NCBI GenBank assembly: GCA_030606485.1
Contig: JAUWGH010000008.1
Coordinates: 124,001 to 188,000, forward strand
Origin: Promethearchaeota archaeon
GTDB lineage: Archaea; Asgardarchaeota; Lokiarchaeia; Sigyniarchaeales; SOKP01
Direction: 5' to 3'
Length of the DNA stretch: 64,000 bases
Under the pieces are notes generated by a model that was not told the DNA's origin, made no database searches, and saw nothing but the letters and a program-made list of their open reading frames with translations. Below, in pieces: positions 24,873 to 44,167 of this stretch (the first letter of the stretch is position 1; each line of letters starts with the position of its first letter). The position numbers were made by a program, and so were the translations under genes.

Positions 24873-25059
24873 ATTGAAAAATTCTTTTATATTTGATTAA
24901 TTAAATTTTCTCTTTCAGAAAATTAACATTATTGATGAAAATATTTCTCAAATAATCAGTTGCTTTAAATATTTTAAAACATATATAGATTTTAATCAAT
25001 TTTATTGATAAATTTTTTAAAATCGACGAAATCAAATTTAAATAAAAAAAGTGAAAAAT

Positions 25060-28000
25060 ATGGTAAAGAAAATAAAAATATTTTCATTTGCTACATTGTT
25101 ATCATTACTTTTGTTTACTATATTAAACGGATCATTTTCAATCGCTACATCAATGCAAGGTCAAGGTGCATCATTTGACTTGGACGAAGATGACCCAATT
25201 GCATTTGGAGCTATTATTCCAGACACAAATATGTATACCGCTGTAAGTATAAATGGATTTAACCAAGGAAAATTTGTTCAGTTGGATTATAGAGGTAATC
25301 CAATAGCAACTGAAGAAATTAATGTTCCAGGAGATGATATTTCTTCGGTTTATCCGTGGTATTTTGATGGTGGTGGTAGTAGAATATATACACCAACAAA
25401 TAATAATTATACTGATCCATGGGACGTTAGATGGCTAAATGTAAGTGCTTTTGATGCAGAGAGTGAAACTCTTTCGCCTTTCAATATAAGTACAGTCTGG
25501 AATTATTATACAATGTCTGAAGGTGGTTCATTGAATGTCCACTTAAATTCTTCTATTCCGATGGTAATTGATATAAATATTAATTCAATTGGTCCTAAAA
25601 TATTAAAATATGATTGGTTGACCGATTCTGTACCCAGTATTACCTCATTTGCTAAACACTTAATCTCTCCATCTGGAATTCCTGTAGATATAGACACAAA
25701 AACCATCAAAACTACGCCTTGGGCACCTGAATCATTTAACATTTTAACATTCGTAGCTCCAGAACCAGGAGTATATAGACTATTAATGGATGTTAACTAT
25801 GTTTCACCAACAATTATGCGTTTACAATTTCTCGATTATGACATAGGAACATTAAATATAGGTGCAATACAATACGGTGGAAACGCTGAAGAAATTCCTA
25901 ATTCTCAAGAACTATTGGATGTGAGATGGAGTTCAGAATGGCATCAATTCAGCGGTGAAAAGGGAGAAAAGTTTAGATTAGATATTGGACTCGATTTTGA
26001 ACAAGCGCCTGGTTCAGCCTATGTAGACATTTGGATTCCTACCGCTTCGGGACATTCACGATTACCAGCAGGTTGGGGTACATATTCGATCTACTTGCCA
26101 ATAAGTGGAAACGTATATGTTTCTGTCACTGATCAATATTATCAAAATCTTTATAGATATTCCTTATATCTAACGAAGATACCAGCTACATATTGGAATA
26201 TGAGTACTACTTTGGATACTTCCATCAAGGTATCAAAAGATGAAATAAAAGGTGTAGATTTCACTATAGAAGAAGACTCATTTGTTAGAATAAATTCAAC
26301 GAGTTACGGTAGCGGAGAAGCTGATTGGGGACGCAGGACTGGATCTCAAGCGTTGATTTTTAAAGATGCGAAAAAAATTGCTGGTTTTGAAGAAATCGCT
26401 CCAATTGAAACCAAGACCGTTGATGGTAATAATTTTTATTACTATTATTTACCTAAAGGTGAATATGAGTTCATAATATGGAATACAGAACCTAAATACG
26501 ATAGCGTTTTACAATTAAGTTCCAAATTTGTTAAATACAGTACTGCTAAAATCCCAATAAATCCATTAACTTATCCAAACCATAATCCATCAATATCTGC
26601 AGCAATTGAATTCACTCCTGATGAATATTATACAAGCCTTAAAGAAGCATATTGGGTTGAGATTAACATTACAGAACCAGGACAATATAGATTGAATACC
26701 ACAATTTGGGTATCTGATCATTCAAGTTATCTTCCTGCCACAGTGAATCCATCTGCAGTTATTGTATATAATAATAATACAGATACATATCATGATTGGA
26801 CTGCAGAATGTATTGACGCTACACTTTCTTTCCCCGCATTTCCTGAGAACCAAGTTGGTGATTGCCTTTTTATTGCACATCCACAGAAATGGGCGGATAT
26901 ACATTATGATTTCTCGCAATTTGGGAGTTCTAGGCAGGTTTCTCTATACATATGGGATGGGGATTGGAATAATCCTCTATCTTATACTGATAATACAGTA
27001 GTTGGATGGTCGGCTTTCAGGCAAGATGGTAGTCAAGATATCAATATAAAAGATAATAATTTTACAGAGTGGATAAAGGGATGTGATTTTGATGTTCTAG
27101 ATATTGATGAGGATTTATATTATTGGATGGCAATAAACTGTTCTGATAATATTGGAACTGGATTGCCGTATATTCAACACTTAACCCTGTCAAATATTAC
27201 AATCGATGGAGATGTTAATTTTTATCTTATAGGAGAGAGCGGTTATGAATATTGTGATTTTTGGGAACCTTCAGCGATAAACCAACCAGACAGTATAGAT
27301 AATGGAGATGATGATTTTGTTATTAACATAAATCAATCTAATAATTTTGCCACTGGTGAAACATGGATTTTAGATCAGGACAAAAATCATCACATGATCG
27401 GAATTGAGCCAGGTGCATACAAACTTTTAATAATTCCTGCATATTGGAGTCATCCTGGTCCAATAAAACTCCGTTTTGCTATAGAAAATTATATGCCTTA
27501 TGCTATGAAAAGATCTTATAATATTACAACAAATCCAACTTACCATCCATGGGAAATAATTGATGATGTACTTGATCCGGAAAAACCATGGCAAAAAGTA
27601 AATTATTCACTCTATTCATACGGAGCAACTATTAAATTTAATAATACATTAGTCGATATTGATCCATTGAGTCCAGACGGTAGTAAAGTATTTGTCGAAT
27701 GTTATGGTAATGCAATTGATTGGACTCAATTGGTTGTATGCATTAATAATGTTAGTTCCTATGATCTCTACTTAATGCAGAATCTTACATGGATAGACAA
27801 TTTTGGACCAAACGATGAAATTAAGGCTATTGCTACAGGTGTTAATGATAATAGTACATTTGAATTTGGAGTATTGACTGATACTTTTACTCTTATCTTT
27901 GTATTTGATGAACAAATGGCAAATGAAACAATTACCTTCAAACTTGGATTAAGTCAATATGATACAATTCGAATCTTAGCAGAAACGCCAATTACAACAG

Positions 28001-28110
28001 TTCCAGGTATTGATCCAGTTCTGCTATTAGGGATAGTAATAGTGATATCTATAATTGCAGGAGTGGCAGTTGTAATCGTTGTAATTTTAAAGAAAAAAGG
28101 CCGAATATGA
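25060..28110 (+). CDS. Large secreted surface protein with C-terminal membrane anchor
   Basis: A protein of about 1016 residues: N-terminal signal peptide (KKIKIFSFATLLSLLLFTIL), a very long extracytoplasmic region rich in Asn, Tyr, Trp, Ser and Thr with many N-x-S/T sites, and a C-terminal helix (about VLLLGIVIVISIIAGVAV) followed by a basic KKKGRI tail. This is type I topology with the bulk outside the cell. No enzymatic motif is seen. Its beta-rich composition suggests jellyroll or Ig-like modules. It converges on a second protein of the same design at 28310, separated by poly-T tracts. The start is ATG 25060, with GTGA five bases upstream; GTG 25051 is the alternative. Confidence 0.75.
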   Translation: MVKKIKIFSFATLLSLLLFTILNGSFSIATSMQGQGASFDLDEDDPIAFGAIIPDTNMYTAVSINGFNQGKFVQLDYRGNPIATEEINVPGDDISSVYPWYFDGGGSRIYTPTNNNYTDPWDVRWLNVSAFDAESETLSPFNISTVWNYYTMSEGGSLNVHLNSSIPMVIDININSIGPKILKYDWLTDSVPSITSFAKHLISPSGIPVDIDTKTIKTTPWAPESFNILTFVAPEPGVYRLLMDVNYVSPTIMRLQFLDYDIGTLNIGAIQYGGNAEEIPNSQELLDVRWSSEWHQFSGEKGEKFRLDIGLDFEQAPGSAYVDIWIPTASGHSRLPAGWGTYSIYLPISGNVYVSVTDQYYQNLYRYSLYLTKIPATYWNMSTTLDTSIKVSKDEIKGVDFTIEEDSFVRINSTSYGSGEADWGRRTGSQALIFKDAKKIAGFEEIAPIETKTVDGNNFYYYYLPKGEYEFIIWNTEPKYDSVLQLSSKFVKYSTAKIPINPLTYPNHNPSISAAIEFTPDEYYTSLKEAYWVEINITEPGQYRLNTTIWVSDHSSYLPATVNPSAVIVYNNNTDTYHDWTAECIDATLSFPAFPENQVGDCLFIAHPQKWADIHYDFSQFGSSRQVSLYIWDGDWNNPLSYTDNTVVGWSAFRQDGSQDINIKDNNFTEWIKGCDFDVLDIDEDLYYWMAINCSDNIGTGLPYIQHLTLSNITIDGDVNFYLIGESGYEYCDFWEPSAINQPDSIDNGDDDFVININQSNNFATGETWILDQDKNHHMIGIEPGAYKLLIIPAYWSHPGPIKLRFAIENYMPYAMKRSYNITTNPTYHPWEIIDDVLDPEKPWQKVNYSLYSYGATIKFNNTLVDIDPLSPDGSKVFVECYGNAIDWTQLVVCINNVSSYDLYLMQNLTWIDNFGPNDEIKAIATGVNDNSTFEFGVLTDTFTLIFVFDEQMANETITFKLGLSQYDTIRILAETPITTVPGIDPVLLLGIVIVISIIAGVAVVIVVILKKKGRI

Positions 28111-28309: not shown

Positions 28310-30478
28310 TTACTTTGATTCTCTCTTTTTATAGAATTTTAAGGCTACAACGGCAATTGCAACAAACGAGAAGCTTAGGATTATGAATATTGGATAACCA
28401 GGAATTATAGGAGCCTCGACGGGGACCTCATAAGTTACTGTTGCTTTAAAGGTACCTATATTATGATATCCATCATCAGTATGTGAATCTAATACAATGT
28501 AATATTCAGATACTTTACAAGTATATACTACCCCGTAATTACCTCCGGAAAAGGCTGTGATACCGAAACATTTTCCATCTATTGATCTAACATTTGAATC
28601 ATATGTCCAAGGAGAATGGACATTTGCTTTGCCGCTAATTGCTTCAATATTAATGTAACAACAACAATCCAATGTCCCGTTTAATAAAGTTAGATCTTCA
28701 CCTCTATTGCGATCGTATTCTGTACCAATTGATATTGGTTCATTCCAATCATAAGACATAGTAAATGAAGTTGAATTTTGAGTTGGATATCCTGAACCTG
28801 GGAAACTATCATCAGCTAAGAGGACCCATGTTTCTTCAAAAATTGCCCATTCGGTAATATATTTATCAAGGTTAGAAGTTTCATAAGTTGAATTTTTAAA
28901 TGTCTTACTTTTCGAAAGCCATAGGGAATATTCTGGGATTATGCCCCCACCTGTGGGAGTTTCAAGTGTCAAGGTTGTCGTTGCATTATCGCCCATTGAG
29001 TCCATTAAAAATCCAACTACAGTATTAGTTGTGTTTACTGGGAGTTTATAAATCCCCTCATCATCACTATCCGAAATTGAACTAAAACTATATGTTTTTG
29101 TTGTAGGTAGATCTACAGGTTGCTTTGAAGATTCTTTAAAACTGAAAGTTAATGATGTATCCGTAAAAGGGACTGATGTGTTGTGTATCTGCACATATAT
29201 AATCAAATCAATTGCATCATTTGATATATTAAATTCACAACTTTTACTAATATGTTCATTAATGCCGTAATATCGTTCAAGAGAATCTCCTATATCTTCG
29301 TCATACCCACCAAGCATCAGTGTTTCCATATTAGGCATTACTTCTCCGTTTAATTTACACTCTCTAGGATCTTTTGGTGGAATAAAAATCATTGCTCCAG
29401 ATTCCGTTTTATTTTCTCCTCTCTTATTATGTAAGTAATAAGGCCCCGTTATGAAGGGAAAAAAAAGTTCAACATCGAAACCATTAGGACAAGAAACAGA
29501 CCAGTCATATAAGACACGAGATTCAAGACCTGAAACATTTATTCCCTGAATTGCATAATTATAAGAAGACATGTTAGCACTATAAAAATTTACATTAATT
29601 GAATCAACTATAGGTGGCGAAACAGCTGGTAATAATACTTCTTTAATATTGAGATCGAAGGAGCAACCTTCGTATAAATAATATGGTTGTGCATAAAGAT
29701 AGTATATACCTTGACATAAGTAAAATTGCCAAATGTCAGCCTCATCGGTTAAGTTAGAATCATCCAGATAGCCTCTACGTCTTTCGAGATTCATTCCTCT
29801 AAAATCGGGCTCATAAATGAAAATTTGTGTATCATTTACTGTAGAATTTAAAACAAATTGATATAATCCAGTAGAGGTAATATTTAATTTTTTATACTTG
29901 AAATCTTCAGAAGTTGCTAATGATGTACTCCAAGTTATTGCACTTGTTTCATCTACATTTGTTGAAGTTACTTCTGATACTGTAATACTACCTCCTAAAT
30001 CCTCCCAAGCGATAGAGCCATTTCTATCGGAAGGTGTACTATAACAGTTGATCATTAAGTTATAATCACGAATAGCAAAATAAAAAAAATCTTCTGAAGT
30101 TGCATTCCAATCTGTAAAAAACCAAACACCCATATCAAAGTAATCTAAACTCTCTCCTTTCATTCTCGGTATGCCAATTCCACACCCATCACATTCAACA
30201 AGATAATCCGGCCAATACAAGTTCGCTATGATGTTACAGCCTTTCTTATTTGTTAGTGTTATTTTATATAAATTATCTTTCGTAAAATTAATTGCATATG
30301 AAGCGATATGAGTATCATTTGTATAAGAGAAAGATTGTGGTGTCCCTAAAGTTAAGGTAGTCGGTGTAGCAGCGCTTGAGGGAGTTACTAGAAAAAATAT
30401 GCTAAAACCCGTAATCATAGAAGTGCATAGTATAGACATAATTGTTAAAATTTTAAGATTTCTTCTCATTATATTCAC
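28310..30478 (-). CDS. Large secreted surface protein with C-terminal membrane anchor
   Basis: A 722-residue protein with a signal peptide (ILTIMSILCTSMITGFSIFF), an extracytoplasmic region rich in Tyr, Asn, Ser, Thr and Cys, and a C-terminal membrane helix (IPGYPIFIILSFSFVAIAVV) followed by KFYKKRESK. The proline-rich IIPGYP segment before the helix is typical of archaeal surface anchors. Repeated beta-strand-like motifs (for instance LYKITLT, GLYQFVL and GIYKLPV) suggest three tandem domains resembling bacterial pre-peptidase C-terminal or Ig-like folds; this is by eye only. It shares architecture with the convergent gene at 25060, and the two may be related envelope components. Function unknown. 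Confidence 0.72.
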   Translation of the reverse strand: MNIMRRNLKILTIMSILCTSMITGFSIFFLVTPSSAATPTTLTLGTPQSFSYTNDTHIASYAINFTKDNLYKITLTNKKGCNIIANLYWPDYLVECDGCGIGIPRMKGESLDYFDMGVWFFTDWNATSEDFFYFAIRDYNLMINCYSTPSDRNGSIAWEDLGGSITVSEVTSTNVDETSAITWSTSLATSEDFKYKKLNITSTGLYQFVLNSTVNDTQIFIYEPDFRGMNLERRRGYLDDSNLTDEADIWQFYLCQGIYYLYAQPYYLYEGCSFDLNIKEVLLPAVSPPIVDSINVNFYSANMSSYNYAIQGINVSGLESRVLYDWSVSCPNGFDVELFFPFITGPYYLHNKRGENKTESGAMIFIPPKDPRECKLNGEVMPNMETLMLGGYDEDIGDSLERYYGINEHISKSCEFNISNDAIDLIIYVQIHNTSVPFTDTSLTFSFKESSKQPVDLPTTKTYSFSSISDSDDEGIYKLPVNTTNTVVGFLMDSMGDNATTTLTLETPTGGGIIPEYSLWLSKSKTFKNSTYETSNLDKYITEWAIFEETWVLLADDSFPGSGYPTQNSTSFTMSYDWNEPISIGTEYDRNRGEDLTLLNGTLDCCCYINIEAISGKANVHSPWTYDSNVRSIDGKCFGITAFSGGNYGVVYTCKVSEYYIVLDSHTDDGYHNIGTFKATVTYEVPVEAPIIPGYPIFIILSFSFVAIAVVALKFYKKRESK

Positions 30479-38581: not shown

Positions 38582-41299
38582 ATGGTTATGGATATTAATC
38601 CTAATGATTTTATCGATAAAAATTTAATCAAAACTATTAATAAGCTAAATAAATTTATAGATAAGGTTAAAAAAGAGAAAATTAAGGAAATTATTGAAGA
38701 GTTAGAGCAATTTACAAAAGTTGAACATCTTAATGTTCAAGCTTTATATATTTTAAGTATTCTTGCGGAGAAATTTCCACAGCTTTTCGAGAGAAATAAT
38801 ATAGAATCTATTAAAATAAATCTGGATTCCAATAATGTAAAAGCAAAAATAAATACATTAATAATTATTGGATTTTATTTACGTGAAAACCTTAAAAAAG
38901 AAAAAGTATTAGTAAAAAGATTTCTAGACTATTTAAAAGACGATGAGGAAGAGATTGTTGAAAATATACTATTTTTTTTAAATTATTTTGCTGAAAATGA
39001 ACCGGATATTATTGAAAATAATAGCGATTTACTTTTAAATTTATTCTATACAGAGACGGATATTAATAAAATAAATATACTTTTAGAAATTATTGATAAG
39101 TTTAAACTAAGAAGTCTTTCAGTAATAATAAGAATTAGAGATATATTACAATTTTTAATTCAAACCTATGACAATGAATATATATTAAAGAAAGCAATTG
39201 AAATTCTCTCAAAATTTATTTCTGAAGTAAAAAATATTAAATACTCTAAAAAAAAAAAGAGAAATATATTAGAAATAATTGCAAAGAAAATTCTACTGAA
39301 AAGATATAATTTAATCATTAAAAATGGAAATCTAGAAAATATAATTAATGATTTCAAAAAAAAAATAAAAAATACAATAAAAAATGAGAATATATATTAT
39401 TGCTACATAAAGGATAAAGAGAAACTATTTTTTATTGAATTTGAAAAATCTAAAATCTTACACTTTTTAGAAAATAAACGGGTATCTCTTAAGGAGCTAC
39501 TAGAAGTCTTATCTGAAGTAATCGAAAACACTTCACAATTAAAGTTATTTCTGTTAAATTTGATTCAATTTAAATTAATAAAAGGATATGTTTCTGAGTT
39601 TTATTTTTACTCTTATGGTTATGTAAAAACAAATATATTAACCAATATCGTGGATAAAGGCTTTATTGATTTAACTGAGTATAAGCATATTGAACCCAAT
39701 TTTATTGAATTAATTCTTGAGGATATAAAATCTGAATTAAAATATACATTATTATATAATAAATCTAAGAAGGTTGTTTACTCTCTCAAAAAGATTATTG
39801 AAGATATTTCTCATTTAGCCTCAAAAGAAAGTGTTATAAATCTGAAACTGTATCACGGATTATTTGATGATAATAATTTTCTAAAAATTATAAAGAAACT
39901 TCCCAAAGGTTATTTAACAGATTATCATATAAGAACAAATTGGCTAACTAATGTTGGAAAAACAAAAATAGTAAATGAATTTGAGAACTCTAAAAAAATC
40001 GGTTTTTTTGATAAGAAGAAGATTAGTGAAAAATTGAGTATTCCTGAAATTCTTCTTGATTCATTTATCAATTCAATTTTAAATTCACAATTAGGTTTTT
40101 GGGATAAATTTCAAGAAATTTTCTATTATTCTAAATATATTCAAGACCAAATAGATAAATTTAGAACCGTTACCGATGAGAAGATAAAAAATCAAAAAAT
40201 TTATTCTTTAGCACAGAAGTTAAATATAGATCAAGACCAAATTCAATTGAAAATTAATGAAGAAATTCAGAAATTTGGTGAAAAAATTAAAAGCAAAGGA
40301 GAAATAAGTATTTCGGAATATATGGATAAAATGGGGATGGATTCTAAAAGATTTTTTAATTTTATTAACAGTTTAAATATTACTTATTTCAAAAAAGGCG
40401 ATTTACTTTACTTAAATGAGGATAAAATATTAGATATAAAAAATGAAGTTAGAAAACAGATAAAGCTTCAATCGAAATCTCAATCTCAACTAATTTTAGG
40501 GAATTTTAATATAAAACAATCAATCGTCAAAGAAATTATTGAAGATTTAGAACAATCAGAGAATTTAAAAGGAATTTTTTGTGAAGAAGGGAATCAAATA
40601 ATTTTTTATACTAAGAAGGGAATTAATAACAAAATTCTGGAATCTACCGATATTTTCTTTATAGATGAATTATTTCCTGGGAAGAAATTGACGGATGATA
40701 AGTATATATTGATTGAGAATATTATAAAATCTCTGATTAAAAATAAAACTCTTATTGGAACATATGATGAATCGAATCGCAATTTTATAAGTTCTGATAT
40801 TGAATTTTCAACGAGTTATAATGATGCTATTAACCAATTCGTAAATTTAATTGAATATTATTGTACTATATTTGAAAGGACATTTAAATCTATTAGGAGT
40901 ATATTAATAAAAGATAATGAGATAATTAGACCAGCTGAAATTACTTTATTACAAAATTCTTTTGATGAATTAATAAAATCTTATGTACGTTGGCGCTCTC
41001 AAATAAGTATAATGAAATCTAAACAAACATCTATTTTTTTGAAACAACAAAGCATATATTCAAAAAAAGAATTTGAACTTTTATCTGAAGAGGAGAAAAA
41101 TGAAATTAAAGATTTCAAAGAAGAACAACGGATTAAAGAGGCAGAAGATATTTTTAATGCGTGGGTAAAATTATTTAAAGAATTAGAATTAAATTATGGA
41201 AAATTAATATTTTATCAAAAAAAAATGTTAATTAATCCAGATGATAAGGAAACTAGAAAAAAATTGAAAGAACTCTACGATTTTCTAGATTTGAAATAA
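38582..41299 (+). CDS. Large protein with HEAT-like N-terminus and winged-helix modules, unknown function
   Basis: A 905-residue protein extremely rich in Ile, Lys, Glu and Asn. Residues about 20-230 contain paired amphipathic helices (for instance VQALYILSILAEKFP and IENNSDLLLNLF) like HEAT/ARM repeats. The middle has segments such as KGEISISEYMDKMGMDSKRF and KGDLLYLNE that look like successive winged-helix domains. The C-terminal 180 residues are mostly helical and charged. No catalytic motif, zinc site or membrane helix is seen. Scaffold-like architecture recalls eukaryotic PCI or UFL1-type proteins, but I cannot claim homology. An ATG six bases downstream of 38582 is an alternative start. 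Confidence 0.7.
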   Translation: MVMDINPNDFIDKNLIKTINKLNKFIDKVKKEKIKEIIEELEQFTKVEHLNVQALYILSILAEKFPQLFERNNIESIKINLDSNNVKAKINTLIIIGFYLRENLKKEKVLVKRFLDYLKDDEEEIVENILFFLNYFAENEPDIIENNSDLLLNLFYTETDINKINILLEIIDKFKLRSLSVIIRIRDILQFLIQTYDNEYILKKAIEILSKFISEVKNIKYSKKKKRNILEIIAKKILLKRYNLIIKNGNLENIINDFKKKIKNTIKNENIYYCYIKDKEKLFFIEFEKSKILHFLENKRVSLKELLEVLSEVIENTSQLKLFLLNLIQFKLIKGYVSEFYFYSYGYVKTNILTNIVDKGFIDLTEYKHIEPNFIELILEDIKSELKYTLLYNKSKKVVYSLKKIIEDISHLASKESVINLKLYHGLFDDNNFLKIIKKLPKGYLTDYHIRTNWLTNVGKTKIVNEFENSKKIGFFDKKKISEKLSIPEILLDSFINSILNSQLGFWDKFQEIFYYSKYIQDQIDKFRTVTDEKIKNQKIYSLAQKLNIDQDQIQLKINEEIQKFGEKIKSKGEISISEYMDKMGMDSKRFFNFINSLNITYFKKGDLLYLNEDKILDIKNEVRKQIKLQSKSQSQLILGNFNIKQSIVKEIIEDLEQSENLKGIFCEEGNQIIFYTKKGINNKILESTDIFFIDELFPGKKLTDDKYILIENIIKSLIKNKTLIGTYDESNRNFISSDIEFSTSYNDAINQFVNLIEYYCTIFERTFKSIRSILIKDNEIIRPAEITLLQNSFDELIKSYVRWRSQISIMKSKQTSIFLKQQSIYSKKEFELLSEEEKNEIKDFKEEQRIKEAEDIFNAWVKLFKELELNYGKLIFYQKKMLINPDDKETRKKLKELYDFLDLK

Positions 41300-42481: not shown

Positions 42482-44167
42482 TTACGGTATCATATGTGGA
42501 GGTGGGGTTTTTAAACAAAATCCACATTTACCAAATGAAGAAATTGTTTGATCCCAACAATGTTTATGATATAATCTTTCACAATACGGACATTCCGTTC
42601 GACATTGATTACCATCAGCAGATGCAATAGGTAGTTTACAGGTACCGTCAGGACATTGAATTTGATGACAAATTACACATGAAATAACCGATACTTCAAA
42701 AATCTTTTTAGATATTGCGTTAAATAAATCAATCAGATATGTAAAAGGAGTCCAGTCATCAAAAAATTGCTGAATAGATGCTTCAAGTTTCTTTTTTATT
42801 GGCTCATGGATCTCATCTTCAAATTCATTTAATACTTTAAGTTCGGGAGGATTCATAGGATAATTTGGGGGTAAAATTGCTTGAAATTCAAAAATTATAT
42901 TCTCGGTTTTCATTTTACCTTTCATTTTCAGATTAATTGTATTTGTGAAAGCGTCAAATTGAAGCTCATCAATGCCACCTTTTAACAAATTAATCTCAAA
43001 ATTTACTCTCGAATTTTTATCAACTAACCAAGATATTTCTCTTAAAATATCCACTACTTCTGATTGTTTAGGTATCCAACTCTTGATTGAGTCTAACTTA
43101 GAAGGAGAAGTTTGTATTAAACTATTTAATTCTGGGCTATATTGCAAAACGGGTGGGTTTGGATATTTGCTAATATCTATCTCTAAATTATATTCTTTAA
43201 ATCCATAGGTAAGTAAATGAACATTCAACTTTGAAATATTTCCCTCTATTGATTCAGCTTGATATTCTCCTGATATTTTTTTACATTGAACTTCAATATC
43301 TTTTATAAAAAATAATTTACTTTCGATTTCTCTTATTAACTCTGCAATATGTGGGGGTGATTTTGAGTTCCATTTTTTAAGCAAATCAAGTTCTTTCTCT
43401 GGTTCTCCCAAAAGATTAATTACTTTTTCTGGAAATGTAACAATGGGTTTTTTGGGGTAGTCATTAAAATCAATCCCGATGATAAATGTTTTTTCTAAAG
43501 TAATTGTGAGATATACGTCGATATATGCTTTATTTTTACCTTTTTGATCAATTGGATATTCCATTTGGATTAATCCTAATTCTGTAGTGACTTCTAAAGG
43601 CATAGTAAATGTTTCTTCAGTAAAAGATTGCGTTTCTGGTTTTAGGGGTTGAAATGATTCTTCTTTTGGTTTTTCTTCTTCATAATAGTCAGGAGTAATG
43701 AATGAGTCTTGCTGAAGAGAAAGTTCTTCTGCAGGATATTTGGAATAATCTGGAGTAATATACTCTTCTGATTTCTGGGATTCTTCGTTAAATTTCTGCT
43801 CTAAAACAGATTGTTCAACAATTGGTTGAATGGGAGCTAAATCTTCTTCAATTTTTGCTGTTCCACTTAAAGTACTTTGAATTTTTCCTTTTAATTCTTT
43901 TATTATATCAACAACTCTTAAATCAGGAGTCCAATTTTTCATGTTATCAAGATTTATATCTCCTAATAAATCTTTTATTTCTTGATGAAGTATTATTTGA
44001 GGAGGGGCATGAGGAAATGTTTCATCAAATTTCACCTCTATAATGAATTTTTGTTCTGAGGTTTCATATACTGCTCCATATAAATGAGCAATATTTCCAG
44101 ATACCATCCAAAAAGAAAATTGTGATGCAATAATTTGAGCTTCTTTTAAAATTCTCTGCTTTTCCAT
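42482..44167 (-). CDS. Four E2/RWD-like domains fused to a RING/PHD-like zinc finger
   Basis: The 561-residue protein contains four similar units at about 5-100, 195-287, 291-385 and 388-490. Each has a proline-rich turn (FPHAPP 51-56, YPKKP 237-241, YPNPP 335-339, YPMNPP 436-441), a short hydrophobic strand, and a later K/N/S/D-W-x-P/S turn before a helix, which is the UBC/RWD-fold layout. None has the HPN-plus-Cys of active E2 enzymes, so they look like UEV/RWD-type non-catalytic domains. An acidic, low-complexity linker spans 105-190. The end is a C4HC3-like cross-brace: C497-x2-C500, C526-x2-C529-x4-H534-x2-C537-x10-C548-x2-C551, with extra C505, C510 and C522. The fusion suggests a scaffold or E3-like protein of an Asgard ubiquitin-type system. 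Domain calls are by eye. Confidence 0.72.
   Translation of the reverse strand: MEKQRILKEAQIIASQFSFWMVSGNIAHLYGAVYETSEQKFIIEVKFDETFPHAPPQIILHQEIKDLLGDINLDNMKNWTPDLRVVDIIKELKGKIQSTLSGTAKIEEDLAPIQPIVEQSVLEQKFNEESQKSEEYITPDYSKYPAEELSLQQDSFITPDYYEEEKPKEESFQPLKPETQSFTEETFTMPLEVTTELGLIQMEYPIDQKGKNKAYIDVYLTITLEKTFIIGIDFNDYPKKPIVTFPEKVINLLGEPEKELDLLKKWNSKSPPHIAELIREIESKLFFIKDIEVQCKKISGEYQAESIEGNISKLNVHLLTYGFKEYNLEIDISKYPNPPVLQYSPELNSLIQTSPSKLDSIKSWIPKQSEVVDILREISWLVDKNSRVNFEINLLKGGIDELQFDAFTNTINLKMKGKMKTENIIFEFQAILPPNYPMNPPELKVLNEFEDEIHEPIKKKLEASIQQFFDDWTPFTYLIDLFNAISKKIFEVSVISCVICHQIQCPDGTCKLPIASADGNQCRTECPYCERLYHKHCWDQTISSFGKCGFCLKTPPPHMIP

Follow-up and report, generated by a model that had tools for sequence, protein, structure and literature searches.

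The combination of RWD and RING domains in one protein is known from LTN1, RNF14 and RNF25, each of which has one RWD only and a different overall architecture. In FANCL, a long kinked helix links two RWD folds (PMC5264512), the ELF domain binds ubiquitin and the double-RWD (DRWD) domain binds substrate (PMC4543658, PMC5264512); Ile309 occupies the position at which the FANCL RING contacts its E2 (PMC5264512). Among archaea, a ubiquitin system has been reconstituted with a small RING protein, srfp, as its E3; srfp is encoded with ubiquitin, E1 and E2 in the Caldiarchaeum operon and needs its Ile30 for activity (PMC5654768). In a library of open papers, which covered few subscription articles and no bioRxiv preprints, we found no description of a multi-RWD RING protein from Asgard archaea.

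Such a protein is encoded in the window analysed here, a stretch of 64,000 nucleotides from a Promethearchaeota contig. The RWD4-RING gene (42482..44167, minus strand, as are all parts of the gene given below) specifies 561 amino acids; its start is conserved in relatives, and its orthologues are conserved over their full length across several genera. The first-pass annotation of this DNA had described four tandem UBC/RWD units, each with a proline turn and a downstream W turn and none with an HPN-Cys catalytic site, and both parts of this description hold. The proline turns are located at residues 51–56 (FPHAPP), 237–241 (YPKKP), 335–339 (YPNPP) and 436–441 (YPMNPP), and the W-x-[PST] turns at residues 78–81 (NWTP), 265–268 (KWNS), 363–366 (SWIP) and 471–474 (DWTP). 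When the protein sequence was shuffled 5000 times, four such pairs never arose, the maximum being two. The UBC/RWD fold is indicated by these motifs, by AlphaFold2 models and by Pfam matches above the curated cut-offs (UQ_con, 4.7e-9; RWD, 8.7e-6); matches to UQ_con and RWD were obtained in 24 of the 24 family members scanned.

Unit 1 (residues 1–104; 43856..44167) is UBC/E2-like according to the model, to UQ_con, whose best stretch covers residues 30–92, and to an E2-K profile, which matches residues 4–99 at 1e-4. A linker predicted to be disordered (residues 105–187; 43607..43855), with pLDDT below 50 over residues 103–187, separates it from unit 2 (residues 188–286; 43310..43606), an RWD-like domain in the position of the FANCL ELF that is delineated by the model and by profile matches to units 1 and 3. 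Unit 3 (residues 287–398; 42974..43309), also RWD-like in the model, ends in a long helix (about residues 371–398) shared with unit 4 (residues 399–490; 42698..42973), which matches Pfam RWD over residues 402–473 and a profile of yeast Ubc13 over residues 416–481. Profile-profile comparison by hhalign identifies units 1–3 as mutual repeats (E 7e-13 to 1e-18). Judging from the same comparison, unit 4 is a more distant repeat, as it matches unit 1 at 1.8e-7 and has no clear match to units 2 or 3; the best score with shuffled columns was 0.017. The HPN motif and the catalytic Cys of active E2s are absent from all four units. In unit 1 the catalytic position is occupied by Asn (GDINLD, residues 69–74) where E2s have G-x-I-C-L-D, some of the E2 structures listed for this comparison being Cys-to-Lys mutants; the zinc module apart, the protein has a single Cys, C295 of unit 3.

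The whole protein was modelled by AlphaFold2 from 32 aligned sequences at pLDDT 74, and residues 188–561 alone at pLDDT 84 and pTM 0.70. Each of the four units consists of a helix, four strands and a helix in the model, which bears out the sheet/helix arrangement expected of UBC/RWD domains, and units 3 and 4 are joined by the shared helix of about 26–28 residues. Foldseek searches of 350,542 PDB chains with the two models matched E2, RWD and tandem-RWD proteins. The top match of both models is FANCL (7kzp_L, 2.2e-7 and 1.8e-7; 9a0j_L, 4.6e-7 and 8.7e-8), aligned over about 405 columns to 370–373 residues, i.e., to the whole length of FANCL. The matches that follow include a BRCA1-A/BRISC chain that we take to be BRE (the second-best protein, 6e-7 to 8e-7), KMN and CENP-O proteins, the isolated central domain of FANCL, and a 1530-residue ribosome quality control chain, presumably LTN1 (6e-5 over about 200 columns).

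Residues 188–561 keep the domain order of FANCL: an E2-like fold, two RWD domains joined through a long common helix, and a RING with a C4HC3 zinc module at the C-terminus. Because the whole-chain TM-scores are only 0.22–0.30, our claim is one of equal domain order and not of equal spatial arrangement; the low scores reflect either differing domain orientations or merely a domain-by-domain match. The initial comparison with eukaryotic RWD-RING proteins can be made more specific: the closest structure is FANCL and not a generic RWD-RING protein. Unlike FANCL, the window protein has an additional N-terminal UBC unit and additional ligands for a likely third zinc, and neither Trp341 nor Tyr311 of FANCL is conserved. 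The Pfam models FANCL_C and FANCL_d1 to FANCL_d3 are not reached above their cut-offs; FANCL_C is missing from the families listed for this protein and for its orthologues, and the matches to FANCL_d1 (one member, 9.5e-4) and FANCL_d2 (two members, 0.0039) are weak. We do not claim membership in the FANCL family at the sequence level: the FANCL_C matches listed across the class are to unrelated entries of the proteomes, and matches were also obtained in half the control genomes. Orthology with FANCL is not established, since the FANCL sequence models do not match the window protein and RWD tandems are also found in BRE, CENP-O and KNL1; these BRE/BRCC45 and kinetochore proteins share the tandem UBC/RWD domains and the high Foldseek ranks but are not known to have a RING.

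The RING-type zinc module (residues 493–556; 42500..42691) comprises ten Cys, His534 and His536, which are kept across the family with few exceptions. The C4HC3-type ligand order first read from the sequence is found in its core (C497-x2-C500, C526-x2-C529-x4-H534-x2-C537, C548-x2-C551), together with four further conserved ligands. The pattern C-x2-C...C-x2-C-x4-H-x2-C-x10-C-x2-C is invariant among close orthologues; its C-x4-H spacing (C529-x4-H534) is presumably that of FANCL as well. We infer two core zinc sites, formed by C497, C500, H534 and C537 and by C526, C529, C548 and C551. The remaining residues C505, C510, C522 and H536 suggest a third, RBX1-like site: an RBX1 profile matches the module at 6e-4 and aligns them with the residues that we take to be the third-zinc ligands of RBX1, while Pfam zf-rbx1 matches are weak (best 0.002). 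The Cys that replaces H536 in three paralogues (L076, L077 and L079) is what a ligand position would lead one to expect; the Ser of one orthologue (L048) is not. A set of additional ligands within the RING, CxxC...C...H, would be a feature in common with RBX1 and RBX2, but RBX1 is a cullin-bound RING-H2 protein, whereas here a C4HC3 core is fused to RWDs. Since much of the module was modelled at pLDDT below 50, its cross-brace fold is proposed on the grounds of ligand spacing, the RBX1 profile and weak Pfam RING and RH matches, which favour it. A zinc module of this type (ACVICHSLTCPTCGG...) also occurs in a 275-residue protein (L127:4352-5176), in which the match to the family is confined to this module.

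The hydrophobic E2-contact position before the second ligand is occupied by Ile499, which is invariant in the A2 set; some other members have V or L in its place, and one distant paralogue has Glu. This residue lies at the position of Ile309 of FANCL and is probably equivalent to Ile30 of Caldiarchaeum subterraneum srfp. Canonical RINGs have a Trp four residues past the sixth ligand; the 561-residue protein has T541 there, and W538 directly follows the sixth ligand C537.

Besides the 561-residue protein, no ubiquitin, E1 or E2 was found in the window (for E1, the neighbours were scanned), in agreement with the first-pass annotation. The neighbouring genes, a HAD hydrolase, sugar-nucleotide-type genes and Phe-tRNA synthetase, show no functional link. 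A 905-residue neighbour (38582-41299, plus strand) has a HEAT-like (Cnd1) N-terminus, no other Pfam match above cut-off and no convincing match among solved structures; two long ORFs of the window, of 1019 residues (25051-28110, plus strand) and 722 residues (28310-30478, minus strand), have no Pfam match at 0.01. A ubiquitin-like protein, an E1 and an E2 are encoded outside the window in the same genome, the E1 and E2 near each other. These two are homologous to the E1 (6e-128) and E2 (2e-83) of a Helarchaeal operon, L074, in which the RWD-RING orthologue is directly followed by the E1, then by an E2 (5e-26, HPN...NICLDL) and a JAB-domain gene (8e-14). An E1 directly follows the Helarchaeal orthologue in three loci (ThiF, 4e-62 in L059, 2e-61 in L073 and 3e-57 in L074); the adjoining gene of L072 was rejected as an E1. 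L059 and L074 also have an NTP_transferase gene on the upstream side, which we regard as incidental. Near the L074 operon lies a gene for a VWA-domain protein with RING/PHD-like zinc modules (L074:13184-14365), an architecture with a similar counterpart in the genome of the window (L124:475-1644, contig C1). In the Lokiarchaeales loci examined, the RWD-RING gene is not near ubiquitin genes; in many of them the next gene on the same strand encodes about 1048 residues, which in both cases tested is a class I tRNA synthetase.

A relative with two RWD units and a RING is found in another Asgard lineage; the profile of the window family matches it at 1.5e-10, the aligned part being unit 4 with the RING. 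Its gene adjoins E1 and E2 genes in the loci examined from all five genomes (L125, L126/L129, L130, L131 and L133), one of which (G071) is probably misbinned; a ubiquitin gene is also present where the fetched stretch reaches (L125, L126), and a JAB gene in L126. The ligand spacing of this RING, C-x2-C-x14-C-x4-C-x4-H-x2-C-x3-W-x8-C-x2-C, is presumably close to that of FANCL. The L125 protein scores 26.6 bits with FANCL_C against a cut-off of 27.3, and zf-RING_2 scores higher. A few genes from the cluster of ubiquitin, E2, E1 and RWD2-RING genes in L126 are an SMC-type ATPase with a hinge (L126:1099-4964; SMC_N, 1.8e-43) and an AAA ATPase, and between these ATPases and the cluster lies an M48-like peptidase fused to a RING; the gene order is the same in L125 (L125:1065-4990).

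It should be noted that the family is unevenly distributed. Its zinc module occurs in 39 of the 83 genomes of the class and E2 in 78, which indicates that RWD4-RING is not a core component; as E2 is near universal, co-occurrence with it was discarded as uninformative. Those loci that carry organism titles are mostly titled Lokiarchaeota/Lokiarchaeia, Sigynarchaeota or Helarchaeota, and two are titled Bathyarchaeota, perhaps by wrong assignment. The four Helarchaeal orthologues are without unit 1. In a tree built without eukaryotic sequences, the Helarchaeal orthologues, three of them E1-linked, group with the window family, and the branch between them and a second paralogue family has weak support (68/25). 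More divergent RWD3-RING paralogues are present in L075, L076, L077, L078, L079, L081 and L082, several with a coiled-coil-looking N-terminal region; those of L077 and L078 have a further RING/zinc-ribbon gene immediately behind them. Possible decay or frameshifts are seen in an RWD-RING gene broken into two ORFs (G010, C4:14664-16224) and in an incomplete second copy of the N-terminal part, which contains a stop and lies upstream (G043, C78:185035-185469).

In our opinion, RWD4-RING probably serves the Lokiarchaeial ubiquitin system as a RING-type E3 ligase and follows the plan of FANCL. A scaffold or an E3-like architecture had been suggested at the outset, and the E1, E2, JAB and ubiquitin genes adjoining relatives support the latter, as do the FANCL domain order and the conserved E2-contact Ile. 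This is the most economical reading, given Ile499 and the precedent of an archaeal RING E3 in Caldiarchaeum. Like srfp, the protein belongs to a family whose RING is encoded in relatives with ubiquitin, E1, E2 and a JAB/Rpn11-type gene, and in which the E2-contact Ile is conserved; unlike the small srfp, this RING is fused to three or four RWD units (two in the other lineage). The zinc module would recruit a charged E2 encoded elsewhere in the genome. By analogy with the FANCL DRWD and ELF, which bind substrate and ubiquitin, respectively, the double RWD of units 3 and 4, together with unit 2, may bind substrates and ubiquitin or E2, and the N-terminal pseudo-E2 on its flexible linker may add a further contact with ubiquitin or substrate. 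Against an E3 count the lack of ubiquitin genes near the Lokiarchaeales loci, the patchy occurrence of the module, the missing canonical Trp, the poorly modelled zinc module and the low TM-scores.

A rival reading, which we consider unlikely, is a scaffold or adaptor that binds ubiquitin but has no ligase activity, similar to Vps23 (UEV) or BRE/BRCC45, in which the zinc module would be structural or protein-binding. The BRE-assigned chain is the second-best protein in Foldseek, but FANCL scores better, and BRE and Vps23 are not known to have a RING. Pfam BRE (2.4e-4) and UEV (1.1e-5) match a few members, and no steadiness box like that of ESCRT-I Vps23 was matched in Pfam. Asgard UEV proteins do bind ubiquitin (PMC9192718), and the Rubicon RH model of Pfam gives matches in many members (best 4.6e-5), including the window protein over its zinc region; the adjacency of relatives to E1 and E2 and the retained E2-contact Ile nevertheless argue for a ligase. 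The RH matches and the patchy distribution would also suit a role unrelated to ubiquitin, such as attachment to a membrane or a GTPase by way of an RH/FYVE-like zinc module, but tandem E2-like domains and the recurrence of ubiquitin-pathway genes next to relatives in two Asgard lineages make this quite improbable. Least probable is an LTN1/Listerin-like translation quality-control factor at ribosomes, which would still be an E3: the Foldseek match to the LTN1-assigned chain (6e-5), in which the C-terminal RWD-RING of LTN1 may be the matched part, and the class I tRNA synthetase next door in two tested Lokiarchaeales loci are offset by the absence of the LTN1 HEAT/ARM solenoid from the window protein and of that synthetase neighbour from the window and the Helarchaeal loci, a housekeeping neighbour being weak evidence in any case.

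Returning to the E3 ligase, we suggest only tentatively, and with more doubt than conviction, that the Asgard RWD-RING family, taken as a whole, is homologous to eukaryotic FANCL, such that the Fanconi E3 would descend from a general archaeal operon-encoded ligase and BRE would perhaps be related after loss of the RING. If the ligase assignment is true, an E3 architecture of the FANCL type, equipped with domains that probably bind substrate, is present outside eukaryotes, and the multi-RWD RING protein is a candidate, open to direct testing, for the source from which FANCL and other proteins with tandem RWDs arose.
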